DNA from: a virus
Virus record (IMG/VR): IMGVR_UViG_3300021963_000060
Span: 35,523-99,522 of that record
Reading direction: 5' to 3' (one strand)
DNA: 64,000 nt
A program made the translations under genes and the position numbers. Below the pieces are notes generated by a model, which did no database searches, was not told the origin of the DNA, and was given only the letters and a program-made list of their open reading frames with translations. Of the stretch, positions 53,845-63,601 are shown in pieces; position 1 is the first letter of the stretch; the number at the start of each line of letters is the position of its first letter.

Positions 53845-55782
53845 TTATTTTCTTACTAGGTCGCCGTTAATGTAACTTGATGATCTTGTATAATTTGAAC
53901 CTGATGGGTTCGCACCTGATGAAATTTCATCTGATACCATATTTAATACAGTTCTAGTATTATCTAGTTGCAAATAAAGATCCTGTAATCCGATAACATC
54001 GTTCGACTTAGGGATAGCAGAAATCTCAATAATTGATTCGCCATTAAATTTAGTTGTTGATAAAATATTAACAGGGTTGAGCAGTATTTCTCCTTTAACA
54101 TAGTCTATAGTACCTACAGACTTTCTAACAATTGTACTATTAGAGATATCTTCACTATTATTTTCAGAATTTAATTTAAAGAAGAATATAGTCCCAGTTT
54201 TACCTCCAGGATTTGGTAGATCACTTAAGTATAAAGTGCCAGGTATTCCCTTAACAGTAAATCCAGAAGACTTAATATTATAACCTTGCATACTCTTAAT
54301 ATGAAATTCATTTCCATAGCAAATTTCATACTCTGCAAGTTGATTGATTGCAGCACGCATGTCTCTTCTAATTTGTATTTTTGTTATATTAGAAGTGATG
54401 GATACGTCAGAATCGTCAATTAATTTTTGGAATTTACTATATTTAAATCTAGCACCGTACTTATTTAATTCAGAAGAATTTGAATACTTATTAATGTTGT
54501 TGAGGACAGAATCTAAAACAGATTCTGCGTTAGATGCTAAGTTTGTATTATAGTAAATATTTGAATCAATTTCAATATAAAGATACTTCAGATCAAGTAT
54601 TTCAGGTACAATACCCGCAACACTATATTGTCTGAGCGTTTTCTTTAAATTTCTTTTTACACCATTAGGAACAAATTGTCCATTAGTTGGTTTAATTGTA
54701 ATAAAAACTTTTCCATATTTTGGAGGTGTTAATTCTTCTCCACCAAAAACAGAAACTGATTCTGCTTCTGGATATATTCTTGGAATTAATGCCTCATAAT
54801 CTGCTGCTGTAACGGCTCTATTTTGTGCAGAATATAATCTAGGAGCATTATTCTTAATTGATCTAATCGATTCAATTTCAGAACCACCAGTTGATGGAGT
54901 AATTGTTGATATAAGAGAAACTCCATCTCCAATAACTCGTCCATTATTATCAATTAGTCTTCCAGCAAAGGTGAAATCAGAAACTCCATTTCCATTTTCT
55001 CCTCCACTGGTTACATAACTTACATCAACATAATTTCCTGTATTTAATTTTTTACCAAATACTCCGTCACCAAAGATTAACTCATATCTCTGATCTTCTA
55101 CTTCTTGTAGAAAATAAATCTTTGATTGATCATCAAGATTGAATAAACTATTTGACTGTGAGAATTTATTCTTTACAGTTGATACTACAGAGTCTTTTAC
55201 AAAAACTCTGATTAAGGATGTATCGATATTTGCATTACCTAAGATAAATCTTTGATCTGGGTTTCCTGCATCTACTGTAAAATTTTCAGTAATGAATGAT
55301 CCTTCAAATATTTCTATTCCTTGCCCATTATTATCAAAATAAGCAATCCCATCAACAACTGGAACTGTAATATCTTCTGGGACTACGTAGGTATAGTTCT
55401 CAGAACCAAAAGAAGCTGCTGTAGTACAGACTACACCCTTCTGTAGTGTGATTGATACTGGTTTTGTCGGGAACGTAGTAGTATCAACGTAAAAATTAAT
55501 TCTAGCTCTAGCGGATGTTCTTGATCTAGGAATATATCCAATGTTTCTTGCTAGAGCAACGACGTTTTCTCTAAGTGTTGCACTATCAATAAAGACCTCA
55601 TTGCTAATCATGTTAGCATTATATGAGGAGATATATGTATTATATGCAAGAATGTCTAGAATGATTGAAAGATTAGATCCTTCAAAATCATAGTCAGTAA
55701 AATTTGAATTCGATCTCAGATAGTCGATTATCGAATTCTTTATATCTTTGAAGTCTAGATTCGTAAAATTTACTAGGGACAT
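53845..55782 (-). CDS. gp6: Baseplate wedge protein gp6
   Basis: This 645-residue protein (T4 gp6 is 660) begins MSLVNFTNLDFKDIKNSIID and contains LDILAYNTYISSYNANMISN (about 48-67), a gp6 signature also found in baseplate J-like proteins. RAVTAADYEALIPRIYPEAE near 327 is another conserved J-like element. gp6 forms the continuous ring of the baseplate that triggers sheath contraction. Its ATG follows the gp25 stop immediately, the T4 order. Confidence 0.95.
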   Translation of the reverse strand: MSLVNFTNLDFKDIKNSIIDYLRSNSNFTDYDFEGSNLSIILDILAYNTYISSYNANMISNEVFIDSATLRENVVALARNIGYIPRSRTSARARINFYVDTTTFPTKPVSITLQKGVVCTTAASFGSENYTYVVPEDITVPVVDGIAYFDNNGQGIEIFEGSFITENFTVDAGNPDQRFILGNANIDTSLIRVFVKDSVVSTVKNKFSQSNSLFNLDDQSKIYFLQEVEDQRYELIFGDGVFGKKLNTGNYVDVSYVTSGGENGNGVSDFTFAGRLIDNNGRVIGDGVSLISTITPSTGGSEIESIRSIKNNAPRLYSAQNRAVTAADYEALIPRIYPEAESVSVFGGEELTPPKYGKVFITIKPTNGQFVPNGVKRNLKKTLRQYSVAGIVPEILDLKYLYIEIDSNIYYNTNLASNAESVLDSVLNNINKYSNSSELNKYGARFKYSKFQKLIDDSDVSITSNITKIQIRRDMRAAINQLAEYEICYGNEFHIKSMQGYNIKSSGFTVKGIPGTLYLSDLPNPGGKTGTIFFFKLNSENNSEDISNSTIVRKSVGTIDYVKGEILLNPVNILSTTKFNGESIIEISAIPKSNDVIGLQDLYLQLDNTRTVLNMVSDEISSGANPSGSNYTRSSSYINGDLVRK

Positions 55783-56184
55783 TTATCTTACTGACTGTAA
55801 TGCAAATGATAATCTTTGAGGTGATACATCAACGCCTATGATTTGATACTTAAGATTAATATCAAAGGTGTTTTCATCATAATTTGGAATGGTAATACAT
55901 TCAATTATAGTAACTCTAGGTTCATATTCTTTGATCAATCTTATAACTTCATCATTTAGAATATCTGCAGAGATATTATCAACGTTTTCAAAGATTGTTC
56001 TAGAAACCCTGGATCCAAAATCTTGGTTAAAGAATTTTTCACCAGGGATAGTATAAACTAGATTTCTAATAGATCTTGCAATCGCAGTCTCATTCTGTAT
56101 CGTAATTAAATCCTTGTTTAAAGGATTCACCTGAAAAGACAAACTAATGTCTTTAAACCCCTTGCTGATACGCTGTATGGGCAT
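55783..56184 (-). CDS. gp25: Baseplate wedge protein gp25
   Basis: This 133-residue protein (T4 gp25 is 132) begins MPIQRISKGFKDISLSFQVN. The core includes LVYTIPGEKFFNQDFGSRVS with the family EPR motif downstream (KEYEPRVTIIECI). gp25 is the most conserved baseplate protein; it binds gp6 and nucleates sheath assembly. It has a late promoter upstream and is the first gene of the baseplate operon that continues through gp6, the giant protein and gp8. Confidence 0.96.
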   Translation of the reverse strand: MPIQRISKGFKDISLSFQVNPLNKDLITIQNETAIARSIRNLVYTIPGEKFFNQDFGSRVSRTIFENVDNISADILNDEVIRLIKEYEPRVTIIECITIPNYDENTFDINLKYQIIGVDVSPQRLSFALQSVR

Positions 56185-58547: not shown

Positions 58548-58658
58548 CTATTTTTTCCCCTCAAAAATTTTTTTTGTTGACTTCAGAGTATATATGAGTT
58601 TTCTCTGAAATCCTATGGGGCGGTTTTTTGTACCGGGAAAAATTTTTTTAGAACACAT
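58548..58658 (-). CDS. Possible small basic ORF (36 residues)
   Basis: An ATG at 58658 opens 36 codons (MCSKKIFPGTKNRPIGFQRK) rich in Lys and Arg and ending just before the next gene. A GAGGTGA ribosome-binding-like sequence lies before an earlier three-codon ORF (MRE) whose stop abuts this ATG, allowing re-initiation. The TATACT element of the next gene lies inside it. It may equally be non-coding leader. Confidence 0.25.
   Translation of the reverse strand: MCSKKIFPGTKNRPIGFQRKLIYTLKSTKKIFEGKK
58576..58592 (-). promoter_or_regulatory. TATACT promoter element with 7-bp dyad, upstream of the 63-residue gene
   Basis: The minus strand reads TATACTCTGAAGTCAAC, which matches the array elements at 59267 and 59564 (TATACTGGCCAAGTCAAC). 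The segment TTCAGAG...CTCTGAA forms an inverted repeat around it with a 14-base loop. It is the leftmost copy of the element family. Confidence 0.5.
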
Positions 58659-58813
58659 TCACTCTCTCATTTTGTCACCTCTGTAGGTTAGGGTAGTTAT
58701 CGTTTTTTAAATCAGGGCGCGCCGCCATAACGATAACGTTATACCATAAACTGCTGATCACGAATGCTCCGCACGAATGGGGGGGGCAAGCGTGAGTGCC
58801 TGCCCCTGCCGTC
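58659..58813. other. Composition boundary and gene-free stretch
   Basis: No convincing gene was found here. The sequence changes from A/T-rich with long A and T runs to G/C-rich within about 100 bases. Notable items are GGCGCGCC at about 58718 and the motif ATAACGATAACGTTAT just right of it. A 71-codon open frame on the minus strand crosses the region, but it overlaps the better supported gene at 58814 and lacks an array element. Confidence 0.6.
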
Positions 58814-58999
58814 TCACCCGATGCCGCGATAATCGGTGTGCAGTCCAGCCAACTCAGCGGCGCAGAATCCGTCGATTCCGTCCCGAGCATAAGCGGCGGA
58901 AGAATGAGAATTCAACTGCGGGCGACCCTTCACCACGTTGGTGCTGACCCATACGGTCTGGCGGGTGGCGAGGTCGGTTGCGATGTTGTAGAGCGCCAT
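58814..58999 (-). CDS. Small array gene, unknown function (61 residues)
   Basis: This 61-residue protein (MALYNIATDLATRQTVWVST) is the leftmost gene of the GC-rich array. It contains ARDGIDGFCAAELAGLHTDY, with no known motif. The start is supported by an array promoter element ending 13 bases before the ATG. GC-rich third codon positions set it apart from genes to the left. Confidence 0.65.
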   Translation of the reverse strand: MALYNIATDLATRQTVWVSTNVVKGRPQLNSHSSAAYARDGIDGFCAAELAGLHTDYRGIG

Positions 59000-59011
59000 G
59001 GGGAGGTGGTG

Positions 59012-59036
59012 TGAACTGGAGCCAGTATAGCAGATC
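59012..59036 (-). promoter_or_regulatory. Array promoter element, GATCTGC-TATACT type
   Basis: The minus strand reads GATCTGCTATACTGG then CTCCAGTTCA, with arms CTGG/CCAG forming a dyad at the presumed start site. The leader to the ATG at 58999 is C-rich (CACCACCTCCCC) and has no Shine-Dalgarno sequence. Confidence 0.6.
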
Positions 59037-59053
59037 GGGGGGCGATGCCCCCC
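59037..59053. terminator. GC palindrome GGGGGGC-GAT-GCCCCCC
   Basis: A 7-bp perfect stem with a 3-base loop sits between the stop codon of the gene at 59062 and the array promoter. It has no U-tract, so it is a stem-loop terminator only by position. Confidence 0.5.
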
Positions 59054-59061
59054 TCAGCGGA

Positions 59062-59253
59062 TCAGTAGCGGATCGGCACGTAAGCGACGGTGACCTCTAC
59101 GTAGAGGGGCTCATCGGTGTTGTAGTCGTCCATCCGCTTACGAAGGCCGGCGGCGTCTGCCTCTGCCTTCTCAGCGGTGGCGTAGAGTCCGAACAGTTCG
59201 GGACGATCGTAGTAGTCGTTGCCCGTGGTGAAGATGGCGTATGCTTCGGTCAT
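59062..59253 (-). CDS. Small array gene, unknown function (63 residues)
   Basis: This 63-residue protein (MTEAYAIFTTGNDYYDRPEL) has helical, Ala/Glu-rich sequence in the middle (FGLYATAEKAEADAAGLRKR) and a beta-type end (YVEVTVAYVPIRY). Many small cyanophage early proteins have a similar alpha-beta pattern, but no family can be named. Its upstream 40 bases are almost identical to those of the gene at 59320. Confidence 0.65.
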   Translation of the reverse strand: MTEAYAIFTTGNDYYDRPELFGLYATAEKAEADAAGLRKRMDDYNTDEPLYVEVTVAYVPIRY

Positions 59254-59266
59254 CGGATCGGATCGG

Positions 59267-59290
59267 TTGACTTGGCCAGTATAGCAGATC
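59267..59290 (-). promoter_or_regulatory. Array promoter element, GATCTGC-TATACT type
   Basis: The minus strand reads GATCTGCTATACTGGCCAAG then TCAACC, followed by the tandem GATCC-GATCC leader to the ATG at 59253. The same 40-base block recurs at 59548-59587 with two changes. Confidence 0.6.
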
Positions 59291-59297
59291 AGGAGGA

Positions 59298-59313
59298 GGG
59301 GGGAGGTCCCCCC
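59298..59313. terminator. GC palindrome GGGGGGA-GG-TCCCCCC
   Basis: A 7-bp perfect stem with a 2-base loop lies between the stop codon of the gene at 59320 and the next promoter element. It lacks a U-tract. Confidence 0.5.
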
Positions 59314-59319
59314 ATCGGG

Positions 59320-59550
59320 TCAGTATCCCAGCCAGTTCAGGAATTCGCCAGTGTCGATCCGCTCGCCCTGCAGATGCCCGTAATCCTTACGGAACTGATA
59401 GAGGCAATCGGGACCGTGCATGTCGGCGGATTCCAGAGCGATGTGCCAGGCGATGGTGTCGTTGGCGGGGTGAGTACAATCCCAGAGGATGTCGCTGAAC
59501 GTGGTGCCAGGAGCGTAAACGTTCAGGCAATCGCGGAGGGCGGTGGTCAT
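59320..59550 (-). CDS. Small array gene, unknown function (76 residues)
   Basis: This 76-residue protein (MTTALRDCLNVYAPGTTFSD) is mixed helix and strand with several Asp, His and Cys residues but no metal-binding spacing. It ends TGEFLNWLGY. The start follows a duplicate of the 59253 gene leader. No recognised domain. Confidence 0.65.
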   Translation of the reverse strand: MTTALRDCLNVYAPGTTFSDILWDCTHPANDTIAWHIALESADMHGPDCLYQFRKDYGHLQGERIDTGEFLNWLGY

Positions 59551-59563
59551 CGGATCGGATCGG

Positions 59564-59587
59564 TTGACTTGGCTAGTGTAGCAGATC
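59564..59587 (-). promoter_or_regulatory. Array promoter element, -10 variant TACACT
   Basis: The minus strand reads GATCTGCTACACTAGCCAAG then TCAACC. It differs from the 59267 copy in the -10 box (TACACT) and one further base, so this copy may be weaker. Confidence 0.55.
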
Positions 59588-59596
59588 GGGGACCGC

Positions 59597-59935
59597 CTAG
59601 GCGGCGGTGAACTGATCGTAGTATTCAGACTCCAGGTGATCCGCTTCCATCTCCCTGATGATGTCGCAGGTCAGACCCTCCAGGGATTGGCGGCAGTGAA
59701 CCAGCTCGTGGATCAGGGTCAGGATGTAGTCTTTGCGGGTCAGGTCGCGCTCAATGTCGATCAGGAATTCGTGGTCGGTTTCCTGCTGCTGCCATCCTAC
59801 CACACCCTCAGCAGTCAGGCGGCGGTGGTGAACCGTGACGGTAGCAGCGCCGAGCAGCGGTTCCTGATCGAGCATGAAGCGGTAGACCTGTTGGGCGAGG
59901 CGGGGGCGTTGCTTCTGTCCAGAGGTGAGCAGCAT
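59597..59935 (-). CDS. Zinc metallopeptidase-like protein (HELVH)
   Basis: This 112-residue protein contains LTLIHELVHCRQ, the HExxH zinc-peptidase motif (HELVH at 76-80), and downstream IREMEADHLESEY, where E-x-x-A-D could give the third ligand as in gluzincin or ImmA/IrrE-like enzymes. The first half (ATVTVHHRRL) is beta-rich. The catalytic core would be minimal. ImmA/IrrE-like enzymes cut regulators, so a role in host takeover is possible. Upstream is an array element; the stop codon lies in a CCGCCTAGGCGG palindrome. Confidence 0.7.
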   Translation of the reverse strand: MLLTSGQKQRPRLAQQVYRFMLDQEPLLGAATVTVHHRRLTAEGVVGWQQQETDHEFLIDIERDLTRKDYILTLIHELVHCRQSLEGLTCDIIREMEADHLESEYYDQFTAA

Positions 59936-59953
59936 GGCGGTGGAGCGGTGGTG

Positions 59954-59978
59954 TGAACTGAAGCCAGTATAGCAGATC
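59954..59978 (-). promoter_or_regulatory. Array promoter element with embedded stop codon
   Basis: The minus strand reads GATCTGCTATACTGG then CTTCAGTTCA. The TGA in the TGATCTG box is the actual stop codon of the upstream gene at 59977, so gene end and promoter share bases. Confidence 0.6.
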
Positions 59979-60171
59979 AGTATGCTTCCCAGGCGGCAGC
60001 GGCAAGGTCAGCCGCCATCTTTTCCAGATTCTCCTCGGTGGTCCGGGCGCCGTACCATTCCATTGATTCGGGGTCCAGGCGGTCCAGGTCGCATCCGTAG
60101 GAATCCCAGGCGATCTCCTCAGCGAGGGCGAGGAGGCGATCGTAGAGGGCGAGGACTTGCTGTTCGGTCAT
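59977..60171 (-). CDS. Small array gene, acidic helical protein (64 residues)
   Basis: This 64-residue protein (MTEQQVLALYDRLLALAEEI) is mainly helical and acidic, ending in an Ala-rich helix (LEKMAADLAAAAWEAY). The pattern resembles small early-gene proteins that bind host factors, but no family is recognised. Its stop codon is inside the promoter element of the gene at 59597. Confidence 0.6.
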   Translation of the reverse strand: MTEQQVLALYDRLLALAEEIAWDSYGCDLDRLDPESMEWYGARTTEENLEKMAADLAAAAWEAY

Positions 60172-60183
60172 TGTTCTATTGAT

Positions 60184-60209
60184 TGAACTGAGATCAGTCT
60201 ACAGGGTCA
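60184..60209 (-). promoter_or_regulatory. Array promoter element, TGACCC type, -10 variant TAGACT
   Basis: The minus strand reads TGACCCTGTAGACT then GATCTCAGTTCA. The first TGA is the stop codon of the gene at 60207. The dyad is CTGATCTCAG. The -10 differs from TATACT at one base. Confidence 0.55.
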
Positions 60210-60431
60210 GGCGACCTTCTGGGGTTTGATGCAGTGACGGTTTACCCACCGGCCCAGTGACTGATTGGAGTTCAGGGTAAGGGCGAGGGCAGCGCGGCGG
60301 GAGACCTTGAAAGTGTAGGGTTGGCGGGTGTAGTAGCGTTCGAAGCGTACCGCCACCTGACCAGTGATAGGGTTGACCGTGAGGGTTTCGATTGCGTCGC
60401 TGTTGTAGGTGGCGATGGGGAGTCCGATCAT
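60207..60431 (-). CDS. KTSC-like small protein (74 residues)
   Basis: This 74-residue protein has NSDAIETLTVNPITGQVAVR, PYTFKVSRRAALALTL and a final SLGRWVNRHCIKP. This order, a Ser-x-x-Ile strand, a V/F strand pair and a C-terminal NRHI-like end, matches the KTSC domain (PF13619) seen in small bacterial and phage proteins whose biological role is poorly known. The similarity is by eye and moderate. It is the sixth gene of the array from the left and has a divergent promoter copy. Confidence 0.5.
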   Translation of the reverse strand: MIGLPIATYNSDAIETLTVNPITGQVAVRFERYYTRQPYTFKVSRRAALALTLNSNQSLGRWVNRHCIKPQKVA

Positions 60432-60445
60432 GGGGTGCCTTGCGG

Positions 60446-60468
60446 TTGAGAGTATTGTAGCAGATCAG
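60446..60468 (-). promoter_or_regulatory. Degenerate array promoter element (TACAAT)
   Basis: The minus strand reads GATCTGCTACAATACT then CTCAACC. The box before the -10 is retained, but the dyad is broken (ACTCTCAACC). It precedes the KTSC-like gene. Confidence 0.45.
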
Positions 60469-60475
60469 GGAGGGG

Positions 60476-60655
60476 TCAGAGCGCCCCGTTCTGATTCAGG
60501 ATGCCGTAGGAGACTTCGAACCCATTGGAGGTGGGGTAGATTCCCAGGTAAGCGCGACCGATGGAGACTGCAAGCATTTCATCTCCAGGGCGTGCTCGGC
60601 GGTCCAAACCAGCGTAGAAGATCGGTTCCAGGAATCGGGGAGTGCGGAGGATCAT
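60476..60655 (-). CDS. Small array gene, unknown function (59 residues)
   Basis: This 59-residue protein reads MILRTPRFLEPIFYAGLDRR, then ARPGDEMLAVSIGRAYLGIY, then a short tail. It is beta-rich and basic at the start. The ORF is too short for most gene finders but has the array promoter, C-rich leader and GC-rich codons, so it is likely genuine. Confidence 0.6.
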   Translation of the reverse strand: MILRTPRFLEPIFYAGLDRRARPGDEMLAVSIGRAYLGIYPTSNGFEVSYGILNQNGAL

Positions 60656-60665
60656 CGGGGTCGTT

Positions 60666-60691
60666 TGAACTGAGAGAATTCTACAGGGTCA
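60666..60691 (-). promoter_or_regulatory. Array promoter element, TGACCC type, -10 variant TAGAAT
   Basis: The minus strand reads TGACCCTGTAGAAT then TCTCTCAGTTCAAA. The leader CGACCCCG runs to the ATG at 60655 with no Shine-Dalgarno sequence. Confidence 0.5.
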
Positions 60692-60711
60692 GGGGAGGAT
60701 CGATCCTCCCC
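60692..60711. terminator. Perfect 20-base palindrome GGGGAGGATC/GATCCTCCCC
   Basis: The sequence is its own reverse complement over 20 bases, with no loop. It lies between the stop codon of the gene at 60723 and the promoter element. It could be a stem-loop in RNA or a protein-binding site. Confidence 0.6.
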
Positions 60712-60722
60712 CTATGGACGGT

Positions 60723-60884
60723 TCAGCGACCGTCTGTGTAGTCTCCGATGATGATGCCATTCTGGCGAACCTGAGCGTACCCGTATTCTTCAGAGAGGGA
60801 GAGGCACAGATCCCAGGCGCGATCCTCATCAGTGGTAGTGTTCTCCCAGGGAGCGGAGGGGCAGATCACGTCAAGGCGTTGCAT
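60723..60884 (-). CDS. Small array gene, unknown function (53 residues)
   Basis: This 53-residue protein reads MQRLDVICPSAPWENTTTDE, then DRAWDLCLSLSEEYGYAQVR, then a short end with IIIGDY. It has two Cys and an amphipathic helix. It is preceded by one of the best array elements, and its composition is that of the array. No family recognised. Confidence 0.6.
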   Translation of the reverse strand: MQRLDVICPSAPWENTTTDEDRAWDLCLSLSEEYGYAQVRQNGIIIGDYTDGR

Positions 60885-60894
60885 GGTGGTTGTC

Positions 60895-60920
60895 TGAACT
60901 GAGATCAGTATAAGGGGTCA
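60895..60920 (-). promoter_or_regulatory. Array promoter element, TGACCCC-TATACT consensus
   Basis: The minus strand reads TGACCCCTTATACT then GATCTCAGTTCAG. The CTGATCTCAG dyad follows the -10. GGGGTCA and TGACCCC at 60914-60940 also form a 7-bp inverted repeat with the stem-loop next to it. Confidence 0.65.
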
Positions 60921-60942
60921 GGAGGGGGATCCGTGACCCCCC
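60914..60942. terminator. Stem-loop with GGGGTCA/TGACCCC arms
   Basis: GGGGTCA (60914-60920) pairs with TGACCCC (60934-60940), and GGGGG pairs with CCCCC within it in an alternative fold. It lies between the stop codon of the gene at 60956 and the element, using bases of the TGACCCC box itself. Confidence 0.5.
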
Positions 60943-60955
60943 GTGTACCAGTGCC

Positions 60956-61141
60956 TCAGGCGGCCATCAGAGCAGACTCCAGGCAGATCTCCCGCGTGTC
61001 CATCAGGGAGTAATCGTAACCCTCATTCTCCTGCAGCTGCCTCAGGTAAGCGTCAGCAGCAGAGAAGCAATCGAACAGGCGGAGCGACTTGAAATCCTCC
61101 CCCTCATAATCGAATCCACCGATCACAGCGTAGACTTTCAT
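60956..61141 (-). CDS. Small array gene, unknown function (61 residues)
   Basis: This 61-residue protein (MKVYAVIGGFDYEGEDFKSL) has an N-terminal strand, then a helix (SAADAYLRQLQENEGYDYSL) and a short acidic end. The pattern KVYAVIGGFDYEGEDFKSLR is one I associate with small phage proteins of unknown role. It uses a consensus array promoter. Confidence 0.65.
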   Translation of the reverse strand: MKVYAVIGGFDYEGEDFKSLRLFDCFSAADAYLRQLQENEGYDYSLMDTREICLESALMAA

Positions 61142-61153
61142 GGGCGGGTCGTT

Positions 61154-61176
61154 TGAACTGAGATCAGTATAGGGTC
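61154..61176 (-). promoter_or_regulatory. Array promoter element, TGACCC-TATACT consensus
   Basis: The minus strand reads TGACCCTATACTGATCTCAG then TTCAAAC, the consensus of the family. No GC palindrome lies between this element and the stop codon of the gene at 61183. Confidence 0.65.
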
Positions 61177-61182
61177 AGGCGG

Positions 61183-61338
61183 TCACCAGCGGCCGTCCCA
61201 GTGGTCAGCCGCCCAACCGTCCCGCTGGGCTTGACGGGCATCATAATCTTCAGCCGTCATCAGGTCATCATGCTCCAGGTCCCACCGATCATCGTATTGG
61301 GCAGAAGCTTGAGAGCGGTAGACAGTAGAGCAGGTCAT
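61183..61338 (-). CDS. Small array gene, Asp/Trp-rich protein (51 residues)
   Basis: This 51-residue protein reads MTCSTVYRSQASAQYDDRWD, then LEHDDLMTAEDYDARQAQRD, then GWAADHWDGRW. It is acidic and Trp-rich, with no motif. Its upstream gap of 20 bases has only a vestige of the array element (TTCTGATCACAAAC), so it probably depends on the promoter of an upstream gene. Confidence 0.55.
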   Translation of the reverse strand: MTCSTVYRSQASAQYDDRWDLEHDDLMTAEDYDARQAQRDGWAADHWDGRW

Positions 61339-61358
61339 CGGTTGTTGTTAGTTTGTGA

Positions 61359-61502
61359 TCAGAATTCGATGGTGTTCAGCGTTGGACCATCTGCAGGATC
61401 ATTGTTATCATCCATCCCAGCAGTGATAGTTTCAAGAATCTGGAGAATTTCATCGCCATTGGTGCCTTTCTGCAGGAGGGAGATTGCAAGACTCTTAGAC
61501 AT
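61359..61502 (-). CDS. Small conserved cyanophage protein (47 residues)
   Basis: This 47-residue protein starts MSKSLAISLLQKGTNGDEIL, then QILETITAGMDDN. The LLQKGTNGDEILQIL pattern is familiar from cyanophage small proteins with no known function. Codon use is less GC-rich than in neighbours. No clear TATACT element precedes it; TAAAACTGCTCACAC might be a remnant. Confidence 0.65.
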   Translation of the reverse strand: MSKSLAISLLQKGTNGDEILQILETITAGMDDNNDPADGPTLNTIEF

Positions 61503-61567
61503 TGTGAGATTAAAAAATTGAGTAGTGTGTGAGCAGTTTTAGGACTTACTCAGGTCCCGATTGTTAA

Positions 61568-61999
61568 TCAGTAATCAGAGAAGATGTGAACCTGACGGTA
61601 ACCAGCTTCGCAAGCGGTGTAATCGTAGCGGAGGTTAGTCTCCCAGGTTGCTTCCCAATCAACCACAACAAAATCGGGGACAATGTAACCCATTTCGCCA
61701 CAGTATTCTTCAGCAAAATCAGCGGTCGATTCGTAGGTTCCGCGATAACGCTCATCGCAGGAATCAATGTAGGACATGTCGCCCATTTCTTCAATCAGGG
61801 CATCAACTGCCTCATAACCGATTGCTTCACCACAGCGGACATACTCCTCATAATAGTTGCAGAAGTCATCCTCATTGTGCTCATCAATGAACTCAAGCAT
61901 GTCATCCAGAGCGTAGTTATCCTCCAGGCGCTCCTCAATGAATGCAACAGTCTGGGGATCGAGGGTTTCTTTGTAGTTGGCGGTGAGGGTGATCGACAT
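61568..61999 (-). CDS. ArdA-like antirestriction protein
   Basis: This 143-residue protein is strongly acidic, as expected for a DNA mimic. Its order matches the later domains of ArdA: YYEEYVRCGEAIGYEAVDAL (about 49-68), then YRGTYESTADFAEEYCGEMG (about 85-104), a final DW-strand and HIFSDY. ArdA mimics B-form DNA and blocks type I restriction enzymes. The N-terminal ArdA domain seems reduced, since the family is usually about 165 residues. It has a consensus array promoter, so early expression against host restriction is a sensible reading. Confidence 0.7.
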   Translation of the reverse strand: MSITLTANYKETLDPQTVAFIEERLEDNYALDDMLEFIDEHNEDDFCNYYEEYVRCGEAIGYEAVDALIEEMGDMSYIDSCDERYRGTYESTADFAEEYCGEMGYIVPDFVVVDWEATWETNLRYDYTACEAGYRQVHIFSDY

Positions 62000-62016
62000 G
62001 GTGGGTTGGGTTCGTT

Positions 62017-62042
62017 TGAACTGAGATCAGTATAAGGGGTCA
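62017..62042 (-). promoter_or_regulatory. Array promoter element, TGACCCC-TATACT consensus
   Basis: The minus strand reads TGACCCCTTATACT then GATCTCAGTTCAAAC, before the ArdA-like gene. The leader GAACCCAACCCACC runs to the ATG without Shine-Dalgarno sequence. Confidence 0.65.
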
Positions 62043-62045
62043 GAG

Positions 62046-62063
62046 GGGGGCGTTGGTGCCCCC
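62046..62063. terminator. GC stem-loop GGGGGC/GCCCCC
   Basis: A 6-bp stem with a 6-base loop (GTTGGT) lies between the stop codon of the gene at 62074 and the promoter element of the ArdA-like gene. Confidence 0.45.
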
Positions 62064-62073
62064 AGTGGACAGA

Positions 62074-62274
62074 TCAGCGAGTGGCACCCTTGATCATGCC
62101 TTCTACGAAAGCGGCACCGATCTCAGCCCAGAAGGAAGAATCGGTGACACAATCAGAGATCGCCTTAGTCCAATCCTGAGCGGTGGCCGTAGCGAGGATC
62201 TTACGTTGATCGGGGGTCAGGTCTGCGATCGTCTCATCCCAGGCGGTGAGCAGTTCGGTTTCCAGGTTGGCCAT
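62074..62274 (-). CDS. Small array gene, helical protein (66 residues)
   Basis: I chose the ATG at 62274 (MANLETELLTAWDETIADLT), since the array element lies just upstream; a longer reading from 62322 would cover the promoter. The protein is helical and ends with FVEGMIKGATR. Pattern TPDQRKILATATAQDWTKAI gives no family. It is the last array gene before the 250-residue gene. Confidence 0.6.
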   Translation of the reverse strand: MANLETELLTAWDETIADLTPDQRKILATATAQDWTKAISDCVTDSSFWAEIGAAFVEGMIKGATR

Positions 62275-62286
62275 CAGTCGGTTGTC

Positions 62287-62310
62287 TGAACTGAGATCAG
62301 TATAAGGGTC
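62287..62310 (-). promoter_or_regulatory. Array promoter element, TATACT consensus
   Basis: The minus strand reads GACCCTTATACTGATCTCAG then TTCAGAC, before the ATG at 62274. The dyad CTGATCTCAG is intact. Confidence 0.65.
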
Positions 62311-62314
62311 GGGA

Positions 62315-62332
62315 GGGGGCATCGATGCCCCC
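62315..62332. terminator. Perfect 18-base palindrome GGGGGCATCGATGCCCCC
   Basis: The sequence is its own reverse complement over 18 bases. It lies between the stop codon of the 250-residue gene and the promoter element, so it follows the array plan of stop, palindrome, promoter. Confidence 0.6.
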
Positions 62333-62341
62333 AGTGGTCAC

Positions 62342-63094
62342 TCAGTAAACCGTCACAGTAGCGGCGGTCTGCTGCAGGAGTTGTGCTACCTTATCCTGTT
62401 GCAATTTAATTACAACTTGAGAGTTTTTGTTTGCTTTACTGTTGCCCAGGAATGCATTGATTCCGTTGTTGCTTGTGACGCGGATTCTCAAACCACAATC
62501 ATACACATTCCCCTCAGAATCGACAAAGTAAATCATGCGGGAAGATTTGCCGTTGCCCTTGAGAACGGGAGTGAAACCACGTTCGATGTAGGAAACTGCG
62601 GGATGATTGTTAGCGGAGAAGACGTAGATTTCCTGAGATTTCGTGTCGTTAATGACAACATCAAAACCAGAGTTGTTATCAATCAGTCCGATTTGCAGAA
62701 TGTTAATAATTTGATCTTTGCTAAGAGTATCCAACGCCAACTCACAAAGAGCGTTGAAACTGTCGCGGATCTTCAGCACGAACTCTTCATCAGAGCGCAG
62801 CGATTCGGGCATCTGACGCAACTCCCTCATGTTGGAAAGGAAGTGGTCAAAAGTATCACCCAGGACATCATTGTATGCGCTGGTGTTGAACCAATCGAAG
62901 CTGCCGTTGGTGATACCTTCCTTGCGCTTTATGCTGATTTTTTGAGCACCAGCAACGGCGTCTTCTTTGAGTTTAGTCCCACCACGCTTTACTACAGTTT
63001 CACTGTAGATCTTTTTCTCATTCAGGATACGAACAGTTGTATCCTCATTCTTTACGCCTCCGTGGTGAACGGAACCGTCTGTTTTGTAAGTCAT
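62342..63094 (-). CDS. Candidate PD-(D/E)XK nuclease-like protein (250 residues)
   Basis: This is the largest gene of the array. The N-terminal part has GSVHHGGVKNEDTTVRILNE, then VVKRGGTKLKEDAVAGAQKI and ISIKRKEGITNGSFDW near residues 52-67. A Glu near the start, an Asp in the KEDAV segment and a SIK-R-K strand are the order of a PD-(D/E)XK active site, and GSFDW-x-NTS recalls restriction-like phage nucleases. The C-terminal half (RMIYFVDSEGNVYDCGLRIR) is beta-rich and may bind DNA. I cannot prove the family. Codon use is intermediate, and its promoter (TATAAT) is not of the array type. Confidence 0.5.
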   Translation of the reverse strand: MTYKTDGSVHHGGVKNEDTTVRILNEKKIYSETVVKRGGTKLKEDAVAGAQKISIKRKEGITNGSFDWFNTSAYNDVLGDTFDHFLSNMRELRQMPESLRSDEEFVLKIRDSFNALCELALDTLSKDQIINILQIGLIDNNSGFDVVINDTKSQEIYVFSANNHPAVSYIERGFTPVLKGNGKSSRMIYFVDSEGNVYDCGLRIRVTSNNGINAFLGNSKANKNSQVVIKLQQDKVAQLLQQTAATVTVY

Positions 63095-63157
63095 TTGATC
63101 GACAAATTAAAGTGAACGTTTGGAGTCTTTAGGGCGCTGCCGTTCCCTGTGCCCTTA

Positions 63158-63163
63158 ATTATA
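63158..63163 (-). promoter_or_regulatory. TATAAT -10 box upstream of the nuclease-like gene
   Basis: CCTGTATAATTAAG on the minus strand lies directly after the stop codon of the small secreted protein gene, 64 bases before the ATG at 63094. No convincing -35 box is seen. The longer leader differs from the other array genes. Confidence 0.5.
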
Positions 63164-63168
63164 CAGGA

Positions 63169-63312
63169 TCAACGACCCTCCCCGCAGTATTCAGGGGCCG
63201 CTTTGCAAAGTGTCTCAGCACGGCGCTCCTGGTACGAATCCACGGTAGCCATCGCAGCGGTAGCGACGTTGAAACCCAGGATCAGGGTCAGGGCAGTAAA
63301 GGCGAGGCGCAT
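63169..63312 (-). CDS. Small secreted protein with signal peptide (47 residues)
   Basis: This 47-residue protein starts MRLAFTALTLILGFNVATAA and continues MATVDSYQERRAETLCKAAP, ending in EYCGEGR. It has one Arg, then a hydrophobic core and an Ala-rich region: a typical signal peptide, with likely cleavage after ATA-A or AMA. The mature peptide of about 26 residues has two Cys (a possible disulphide). Export by the host Sec system suggests action in the periplasm, for example superinfection exclusion, which is inference. It has an array promoter. Confidence 0.6.
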   Translation of the reverse strand: MRLAFTALTLILGFNVATAAMATVDSYQERRAETLCKAAPEYCGEGR

Positions 63313-63321
63313 GGGGTTGTT

Positions 63322-63343
63322 TGAACTGTGGCCAGTATAGGGG
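63322..63343 (-). promoter_or_regulatory. Array promoter element, rightmost copy
   Basis: The minus strand reads AACCCCTATACTGG then CCACAGTTCAAAC. The dyad here is shortened to CTGGCCACAG. The leader AACCCC runs to the ATG at 63312. Confidence 0.6.
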
Positions 63344-63347
63344 TTAA

Positions 63348-63370
63348 AAGGGGATTCACGAACCCCCCTT
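63348..63370. terminator. Weak GC stem-loop AAGGGG/CCCCTT
   Basis: AAGGGG and CCCC(CC)TT pair around an ATTCACGAA loop, between the stop codon of the gene at 63389 and the rightmost promoter element. The stem is imperfect. Confidence 0.35.
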
Positions 63371-63388
63371 GTGCCACTTGTCAGTCTG

Positions 63389-63601
63389 TCACGCAGGTTC
63401 CGTCACCTCTGTAGGATACACAGGTTCAGTATCTTCTAGCAGTTCAGGGTAGGTTTCACTAACCTCAGTGATTAGTTCATCCTCAGTATAATCATTGAAG
63501 CATTGAACTAGCATGTCGTAAGCATACTGTTCAAGAGTTTTCATGTCCATACTATCCAGGATTTGCTGGGCGTAGGCATCAATCAGGTCTGCTTTGTTCA
63601 T
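63389..63601 (-). CDS. Conserved small cyanophage protein (70 residues)
   Basis: The protein starts MNKADLIDAYAQQILDSMDM, then KTLEQYAYDMLVQCFNDYTE and ELITEVSETYPELLED. I recall this helical pattern from many cyanomyovirus proteins of unknown function. I chose ATG at 63601 because it matches that start; a reading from 63658 would overlap the gene upstream. Codons are less GC-rich than in the array genes, so this is probably older phage sequence. Confidence 0.75.
   Translation of the reverse strand: MNKADLIDAYAQQILDSMDMKTLEQYAYDMLVQCFNDYTEDELITEVSETYPELLEDTEPVYPTEVTEPA

Follow-up and report, generated by a model that had tools for sequence, protein, structure and literature searches.

A 24-bp palindromic element and two promoter classes in the small-gene array of a T4-like cyanophage

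The window analyzed here, a stretch of 64,000 nucleotides corresponding to bases 35,523-99,522 of the linear 99,522-bp IMG/VR virus contig IMGVR_UViG_3300021963_000060, comes from a marine T4-like cyanophage and includes a GC-rich stretch with ∼13 tiny genes, most of which have a promoter of their own. What exactly is repeated in front of these genes, and is the repeat confined to this array? An earlier note, based on the sequence alone, likened the repeated units to the promoter early stem-loop (PeSL) cassettes of T4-type phages, with a short dyad following each promoter. The cassette system is real and widespread, and its units resemble PeSLs. The most conserved upstream element, overlooked in that note and present at seven to eight of the array sites, is a 24-bp palindrome that looks like an operator for a dimeric DNA-binding protein rather than an RNA hairpin. 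We consider it fairly likely that a promoter regulon, run by a dimeric activator, extends across the T4-like cyanophages and has one of its hot spots in the array.

The scan of viral contigs with the promoter core (query TANAMTnnnnTCAGTTCAAACGA) yielded at least 120 stretches, and alignment of 118 dereplicated cassettes on the core reveals a second conserved block upstream of it, TGTGNCAsTT-N4-AAsTGNCACA. This operator ends 29-31 bp before the -10 hexamer, and its start is located at -52 to -56 from the hexamer in ∼100 of the 118 cassettes. In a strict palindrome search, with the gap free to vary from 5 to 14, the gap was exactly 10 in 36 of 36 matches from nine genomes, and the reversed control gave none. 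When viral contigs were scanned with the operator only, leaving the promoter out of the query, the yield was again at least 120 stretches; among the matches listed are 178 distinct sites, in which the distance from the operator to a TATAAT-like hexamer downstream is exactly 29 bp in 75 cases and 30 bp in 48, over a background of ∼3-5 for each other distance. About one-third of the 89 dereplicated operator-only promoters among these matches have a -35-like TTG at a spacing of 16-17 bp, which places the end of the operator ∼7 bp upstream of the -35 position and its center near -55. Such a palindrome at a fixed distance upstream of a weak core is what would be expected of a class-I-like operator of a dimeric activator. 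Covariation between the arms was sought at 12 positions, with pairing found to be no more common than in shuffled sequences and positions 5 and 20 varying freely. A palindrome of fixed length with independently varying arms points to a protein-binding DNA site, not an RNA stem.

The two subfamilies of cassettes distinguished in the earlier note are real, and it is the operator that separates them. The window promoters at 60196, 60678, 60907, 61166, 62029, 62299, 63158 and 63334 carry the operator (class A), whereas those at 59024, 59278, 59575, 59966 and 60454 are free of it and have an extended -10, with TGC directly before the hexamer, as in TGC-TATACT (class B). Across 248 promoters (a set dereplicated at 75% upstream identity), the operator accompanies 3 of the 57 extended -10 promoters vs 160 of the 191 others (Fisher p = 1.5e-28). 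This exclusion is a property of the promoter rather than of the gene because 17 gene families are found with both promoter classes. Class A tends toward the 5' end of the arrays and class B toward the 3' end. It is textbook knowledge that a promoter can dispense with an upstream activator if it has an extended -10, and therefore, the mutual exclusion of the operator and the extended -10 argues for activation over repression.

A repressor that binds the operator and shuts the genes off later in infection would be in line with two considerations, namely, that phage operators with palindromic sequences often bind repressors and that small genes in arrays, being possibly toxic, may have to be shut off. 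However, the site leaves the core promoter uncovered, as it is located upstream of the -35 position, and the class A cores come without the extended -10 of the operator-free cores, which is the pattern expected for activation. Repression is, thus, an unlikely function of the operator.

Judging by sequence, the cassette is one variant within a promoter class that has the 24-bp operator, is genome-wide and reaches beyond the array. With the operator position weight matrix (PWM) at a threshold of 13 and the mean of permuted-column matrices as the control, the counts were 25 (control, 0.8) in S-PM2, 22 (0.6) in P-SSM2, 26 (1.2) in S-CRM01, 15 (1.4) in Syn9, 14 (1.1) in Syn19, 6 (1.2) in S-SM2 and 8 (0.2) in the window contig. 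There was no operator enrichment in T4 (1 vs 0.8 in the control) or in host genomes; the count in pelagiphage HTVC008M was 2 (0.5). At most of the operator sites in S-PM2 and P-SSM2, the -10 is in register (18 and 17, respectively, vs ∼2.4 expected), and in P-SSM2 and S-CRM01, the start codon often follows 81-89 bp after the operator start. P-HM2 has ∼8 operators in its small-gene region. The targets in S-PM2 and S-CRM01 include small unknown genes, cobS, a peptidase, uvsW and tRNA clusters, the last being preceded by operators in S-CRM01.

Several loci depart from this layout. In S-PM2, an operator-like site upstream of psbA (135162-135185) is separated from an extended -10 by a longer spacing, ∼50 bp; for the psbA region of S-PM2d, promoter motifs and a 36-bp inverted repeat, interpreted as a 5'-UTR hairpin, have been described (PMC5931967). 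The loci L242 (positions 11-400) and L199 (contig IMGVR_UViG_3300008113_001711) contain at least seven tandem copies of the operator with TTGACA at a period of ∼57 bp, possibly decoys or stacked promoters. In three others (L212, L250 and L274), the -10 of the operator promoter runs into a late-type TATAAATA (CATAATGTATAAATAA), so that operator-dependent and late promoters seem to overlap.

Could the operator be recognized by a host regulator that has been co-opted by the phages? Sites of host type, Pho boxes among them, do occur in cyanophages (PMC10976474), and the same study, Rihtman 2024, predicts a Pho box, CCTATACTGATCTCAGTTC, in front of one S-PM2d gene, with no binding test there; this sequence is the cassette core. 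However, only eight operator sites with at most one mismatch were detected in 81 Synechococcus-family genomes, one of these beside an integrase, and a 3.5-Mb Cyanobium genome has none at up to two mismatches. These counts do not support a host regulon, and exploitation of a host regulator is improbable; the regulator is probably phage-encoded. The match next to the integrase (near position 1501 of locus L379 in host genome G046, with the site-specific integrase at 1699-2982) possibly belongs to a satellite element able to respond to the regulator of the phage.

The palindrome could also be an RNA feature, namely, a 3'-terminal hairpin of the upstream gene for termination or processing, in which case the unit would be a double stem-loop PeSL. 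Indeed, the stop codon of the upstream gene frequently falls within the region of the palindrome, and the Rho-independent terminators in the S-CRM01 record at 125862-125891 and 154634-154661 cover the operators at 125865-125888 and 154636-154659. In addition to the arms that pair no more than shuffled sequences within a total length fixed at 24, several features are difficult to reconcile with this possibility: the palindrome keeps a constant distance of 29-30 from the -10 also where the genes are AT-rich and the leaders differ, no T-run follows it, and it is absent precisely in front of the promoters with an extended -10, something that the terminator of an upstream gene could not 'know'. A Rho-independent terminator, for which a covarying stem and a T-run were sought, was rejected given the lack of covariation, the fixed length and the fixed spacing, and an RNA role for the palindrome is highly doubtful.

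Hairpins of a different kind are found in the spacer between the operator and the -10. The GC-rich palindromes that the earlier note placed between the genes at six sites are present, but the strong hairpins in the spacer number seven. The spacers fold at -8.3 kcal/mol vs -6.1 kcal/mol for shuffled spacers, and stems of at least 8 bp are present in 28 of the 118 spacers vs ∼5 expected. These hairpins are separate from the operator because strong ones also precede class B promoters that have no operator. A terminator function of the spacer hairpins is plausible. In a comparison with known RNA families, the best match was a weak one to Ocean-VII (14-18 bits vs the cut-off of 53.5), and it was rejected.

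The genes behind the promoters are a mosaic. Among the matches listed, 395 cassette genes at 117 loci fall into 75 families, and the 117 non-redundant neighbor pairs give 85 different family pairs, with one family tending to be last. Together with the 17 families that occur with both promoter classes, this supports the proposal that genes are gained and swapped as units. That the repeats serve mainly as recombination substrates for gene shuffling, with a secondary promoter role, is very improbable: the strong mosaicism at the units would fit, as would the PeSL-mediated recombination described, according to the account in PMC4503421, in other T4-type phages, but the base-level spacing between the operator and the -10 and the exclusion of the extended -10 are explained by transcription, not by homology, and outside the arrays, the units share only the operator and the -10.

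Under the activator model, a unit would consist, in order, of the end of the upstream gene, the 24-bp operator (in class A), a spacer of ∼30 bp that often includes a GC-rich hairpin serving as a terminator or insulator, the -10, a short leader and one small gene. The -10 hexamer, from which the start sites are predicted, would be read by the host housekeeping sigma factor. A class A promoter, with its weak core, would need a dimeric protein positioned around -55, a little upstream of -35, in the manner of a class I activator, whereas a class B promoter would have the extended -10 (TGn) in place of the activator and could fire with the host RNA polymerase alone. The units would be gained, lost or switched in promoter class independently of the gene, with recombination between units possible because all have the same flanking sequence.

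Several observations weigh against this model. Among the proteins that are common to the operator-bearing phages and absent from T4 and HTVC008M, there is no clear DNA-binding protein. A single regulator-like candidate emerged, an AbrB/MazE-like family (PHROG_661); it is strongly acidic, has weak Pfam support and turned up neither in S-CRM01 nor on the window contig. Only a quarter of the spacers have the long stems, and only 12 of the 118 contain T-runs. Finally, TG is present at -3,-2 in 20 of the 89 operator-only promoters among the matches listed, which, along with the -35-like TTG in about one-third of them, indicates that operator dependence is not absolute outside the arrays.

PHROG_661 is a lead only, and a positional one: in 50 of the 56 loci that bear this family, it is located downstream of the array, with the nearest cassette at a median of ∼855 bp upstream. 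The protein is small and is encoded behind a CTATATAAAA-type sequence in L100, L124, L059 and ∼50 other cassette loci, as well as at 1913-2116 in S-PM2.

Within the window, the small ORFs occupy the minus strand at 58.8-63.4 kb. The 12 or more minus-strand promoter copies claimed originally were located at 12 of 12 sites, each a -10-like hexamer followed by a leader and an ORF of 47-143 codons, within the ∼45-145 codons given before, and with the ATG 21-30 nt after the hexamer; one sigma-70-like promoter per small gene is also a feature of PeSLs. With the core weight matrix, nine copies score at least 18; every one is in the array, on the minus strand, and the rest of the 99,522-bp contig has none (mean of 0.05 matches for permuted-column controls). 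The AGTTCA reported after the promoter is there at 9 of the 12 sites; those at 59278, 59575 and 60454 have AAGTCAACCG or CTCAACCGC leaders instead. The dyad reported after TATACT (ACTGATCTCAGT) did not hold up: related cassettes have TATAATGACTTCAGTT, TAGACTAACCTCAGTT or TACAATACTCTCAGTT in its place, and as it is not conserved across cassettes, it was discarded as a conserved element.

In the direction of transcription, the array opens with a run of class A promoters, all features being on the minus strand. The first operator, CGTGACAGACTGACAAGTGGCACA (63370-63393; PWM score 15.8, 30 bp before the -10), is followed by a GC-rich spacer hairpin (63349-63368; minimum free energy (MFE) -10.6), the -10 TATACT (63334-63339) and a 47-aa gene with a hydrophobic N-terminus (63169-63312; PHROG_1792). 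A 13th promoter-like site, with the operator TGAGACACTTTGCAAAGCGGCCCC (63194-63217; score 19.0, 30 bp) and the -10 TATAAT (63158-63163), differs in its leader and lies upstream of a 250-aa gene without a family match (62342-63094). Next come the operator TGTGACGGTTTACTGAGTGACCAC (62334-62357; 15.3, gap 29), the hairpin GGGGGCATCGATGCCCCC (62315-62332; MFE -14.4), TATACT (62299-62304) and a 66-aa gene (62074-62274), and then the operator GGTGCCACTCGCTGATCTGTCCAC (62065-62088; 18.5, gap 30), the hairpin GGGGGC-ACCAAC-GCCCCC (62046-62063; MFE -13.5), TATACT (62029-62034) and a 143-aa anti-restriction (ArdA-like) gene (61568-61999; PHROG_36653, E 9.6e-41; weak Pfam ArdA match, E 0.0087). The operator CGGGACGGTTGGGCGGCTGACCAC (61201-61224; 12.1, gap 29) and TATACT (61166-61171) precede a 61-aa gene (60956-61141; PHROG_17343). 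The operator ATGGCCGCCTGAGGCACTGGTACA (60944-60967; 15.1, gap 31), a GC-rich hairpin (60923-60942) and TATACT (60907-60912) precede a 53-aa gene (60723-60884; PHROG_17176), and a weak operator match, ACAGACGGTCGCTGAACCGTCCAT (60714-60737; 9.8, gap 30), the hairpin GGGGGAGGATCGATCCTCCCC (60691-60712; MFE -16.7) and TAGAAT (60678-60683) precede a 59-aa gene (60476-60655).

The first class B promoter follows, with TGC before the -10 TACAAT (60454-60459) and a 74-aa gene (60207-60431; PHROG_7365), and then one more class A unit, with the operator TGGGCCGGTGGGTAAACCGTCACT (60233-60256; 19.4, gap 31), TAGACT (60196-60201) and a 64-aa gene (59977-60171). The remaining four promoters, also on the minus strand, belong to class B. 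TGC-TATACT, with the hexamer at 59966-59971, precedes a 112-aa metallopeptidase-like gene with an HELVH motif (59597-59935; PHROG_10499; weak DUF6782 match, E 0.0012), and TACACT (59575-59580) precedes a 76-aa gene (59320-59550). The last two are headed by GC-rich hairpins: 59298-59313 (MFE -13.6), followed by TATACT (59278-59283) and a 63-aa gene with a homolog in the S-PM2 array (59062-59253), and 59037-59053 (MFE -15.9), followed by TATACT (59024-59029) and a 61-aa gene of the family that is usually last in arrays (58814-58999). The HELVH protein and the ArdA-like protein are possible host-takeover proteins.

The array is directly upstream of the gp25-like (55783-56184) and gp6-like (53845-55782) genes, named by synteny with S-PM2. 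Its GC content is 52-60%, with GC at third codon positions (GC3) of ∼0.67-0.77, compared with ∼31% and ∼0.2, respectively, in the neighboring structural genes. The GC island (58800-63400 in the window; 20000-24000 in L009) is host-like in composition and is retained in two diverged phages and many contigs; the GC3 of its cassette genes is ∼0.68-0.74, whereas S-PM2 ORFs of at least 150 aa have an average GC3 of 0.28. The cassette family is, as the earlier note held, a tightly conserved cyanophage one, with the core widespread in cyanophage contigs and the same locus found in S-PM2. The S-PM2 array (AJ630128, 21.4-24.8 kb) is likewise located just upstream of gp25, is GC-rich (53-59%) and shares the core and some gene families, but differs from the window in gene content and order and is annotated solely as hypothetical genes. 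Several annotated S-PM2 genes at 21.6-24.0 kb (p071, p074) are on the strand opposite to the cassette ORFs and are probably mis-annotated. The small-gene region upstream of gp25 is variable in the window and S-PM2, in keeping with the hyperplastic T4-type regions that harbor PeSLs.

How do these units compare with known systems? PeSLs are known from the T4-type phages RB49/phi1, T4/PST and KVP40/nt-1 (Arbiol 2010; Comeau 2014, as summarized in PMC4503421). In that summary, they are small intergenic units of a promoter and a stem-loop in a variable region, with shuffling break-points at the units, all of which is seen here, whereas most of the present units add a 24-bp operator that is used genome-wide and fall into two mutually exclusive promoter classes. 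The initial comparison with PeSLs, thus, stands for the promoters, the inter-gene hairpins and the modular exchange, but the dyad described is not the conserved one, and the feature is not limited to the array. In S-PM2, PeSL density was judged too low to matter, with another region considered (Puxty 2015, PMC4503421).

Cyanophages lack motA and asiA (PMC2984593, PMC5780444), and because of this, the control of early and middle genes in cyanomyoviruses, including its timing, is stated in these works to be unclear. The present units would share with the T4 middle promoters (MotA box plus AsiA) a phage-specific layer of activation, added to the host sigma-70 promoters that serve non-structural genes. 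However, the MotA box is located at -30, and the conserved element in the cyanophages is a palindrome centered near -55 that ends 29-31 bp before the -10, so that these are not MotA-dependent middle promoters. Class B resembles the extended -10 sigma-70 promoters, with TGC directly before TATACT or TACAAT and no upstream element, but here such promoters are an alternative form inside a swappable cassette. No description of a 24-bp operator was found in the open-access literature, with subscription papers, including the Syn9 transcriptome and the PeSL originals, outside the search; the operator and its exclusion rule with the extended -10 are, provisionally, the new part.

At its broadest, the proposal is that the T4-like cyanophages share a regulon of ∼10-40 promoters per genome, that a phage-encoded dimeric activator replaces MotA/AsiA, and that mobile cassettes plug into the regulon via the operator; we view this extended version as an evenly balanced possibility. 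Infection transcriptomes are available for genomes with the operator (S-PM2, P-SSM2, P-HM2 and Syn9), so that the timing of these putative promoters is directly testable, and the operator can serve as bait for the regulator. The rule of operator or extended -10 can be used to predict promoters in thousands of environmental phage contigs. By bringing a ready-made promoter, new small genes would be wired in at once, and the regulon may run the non-structural genes of the cyanophage family.

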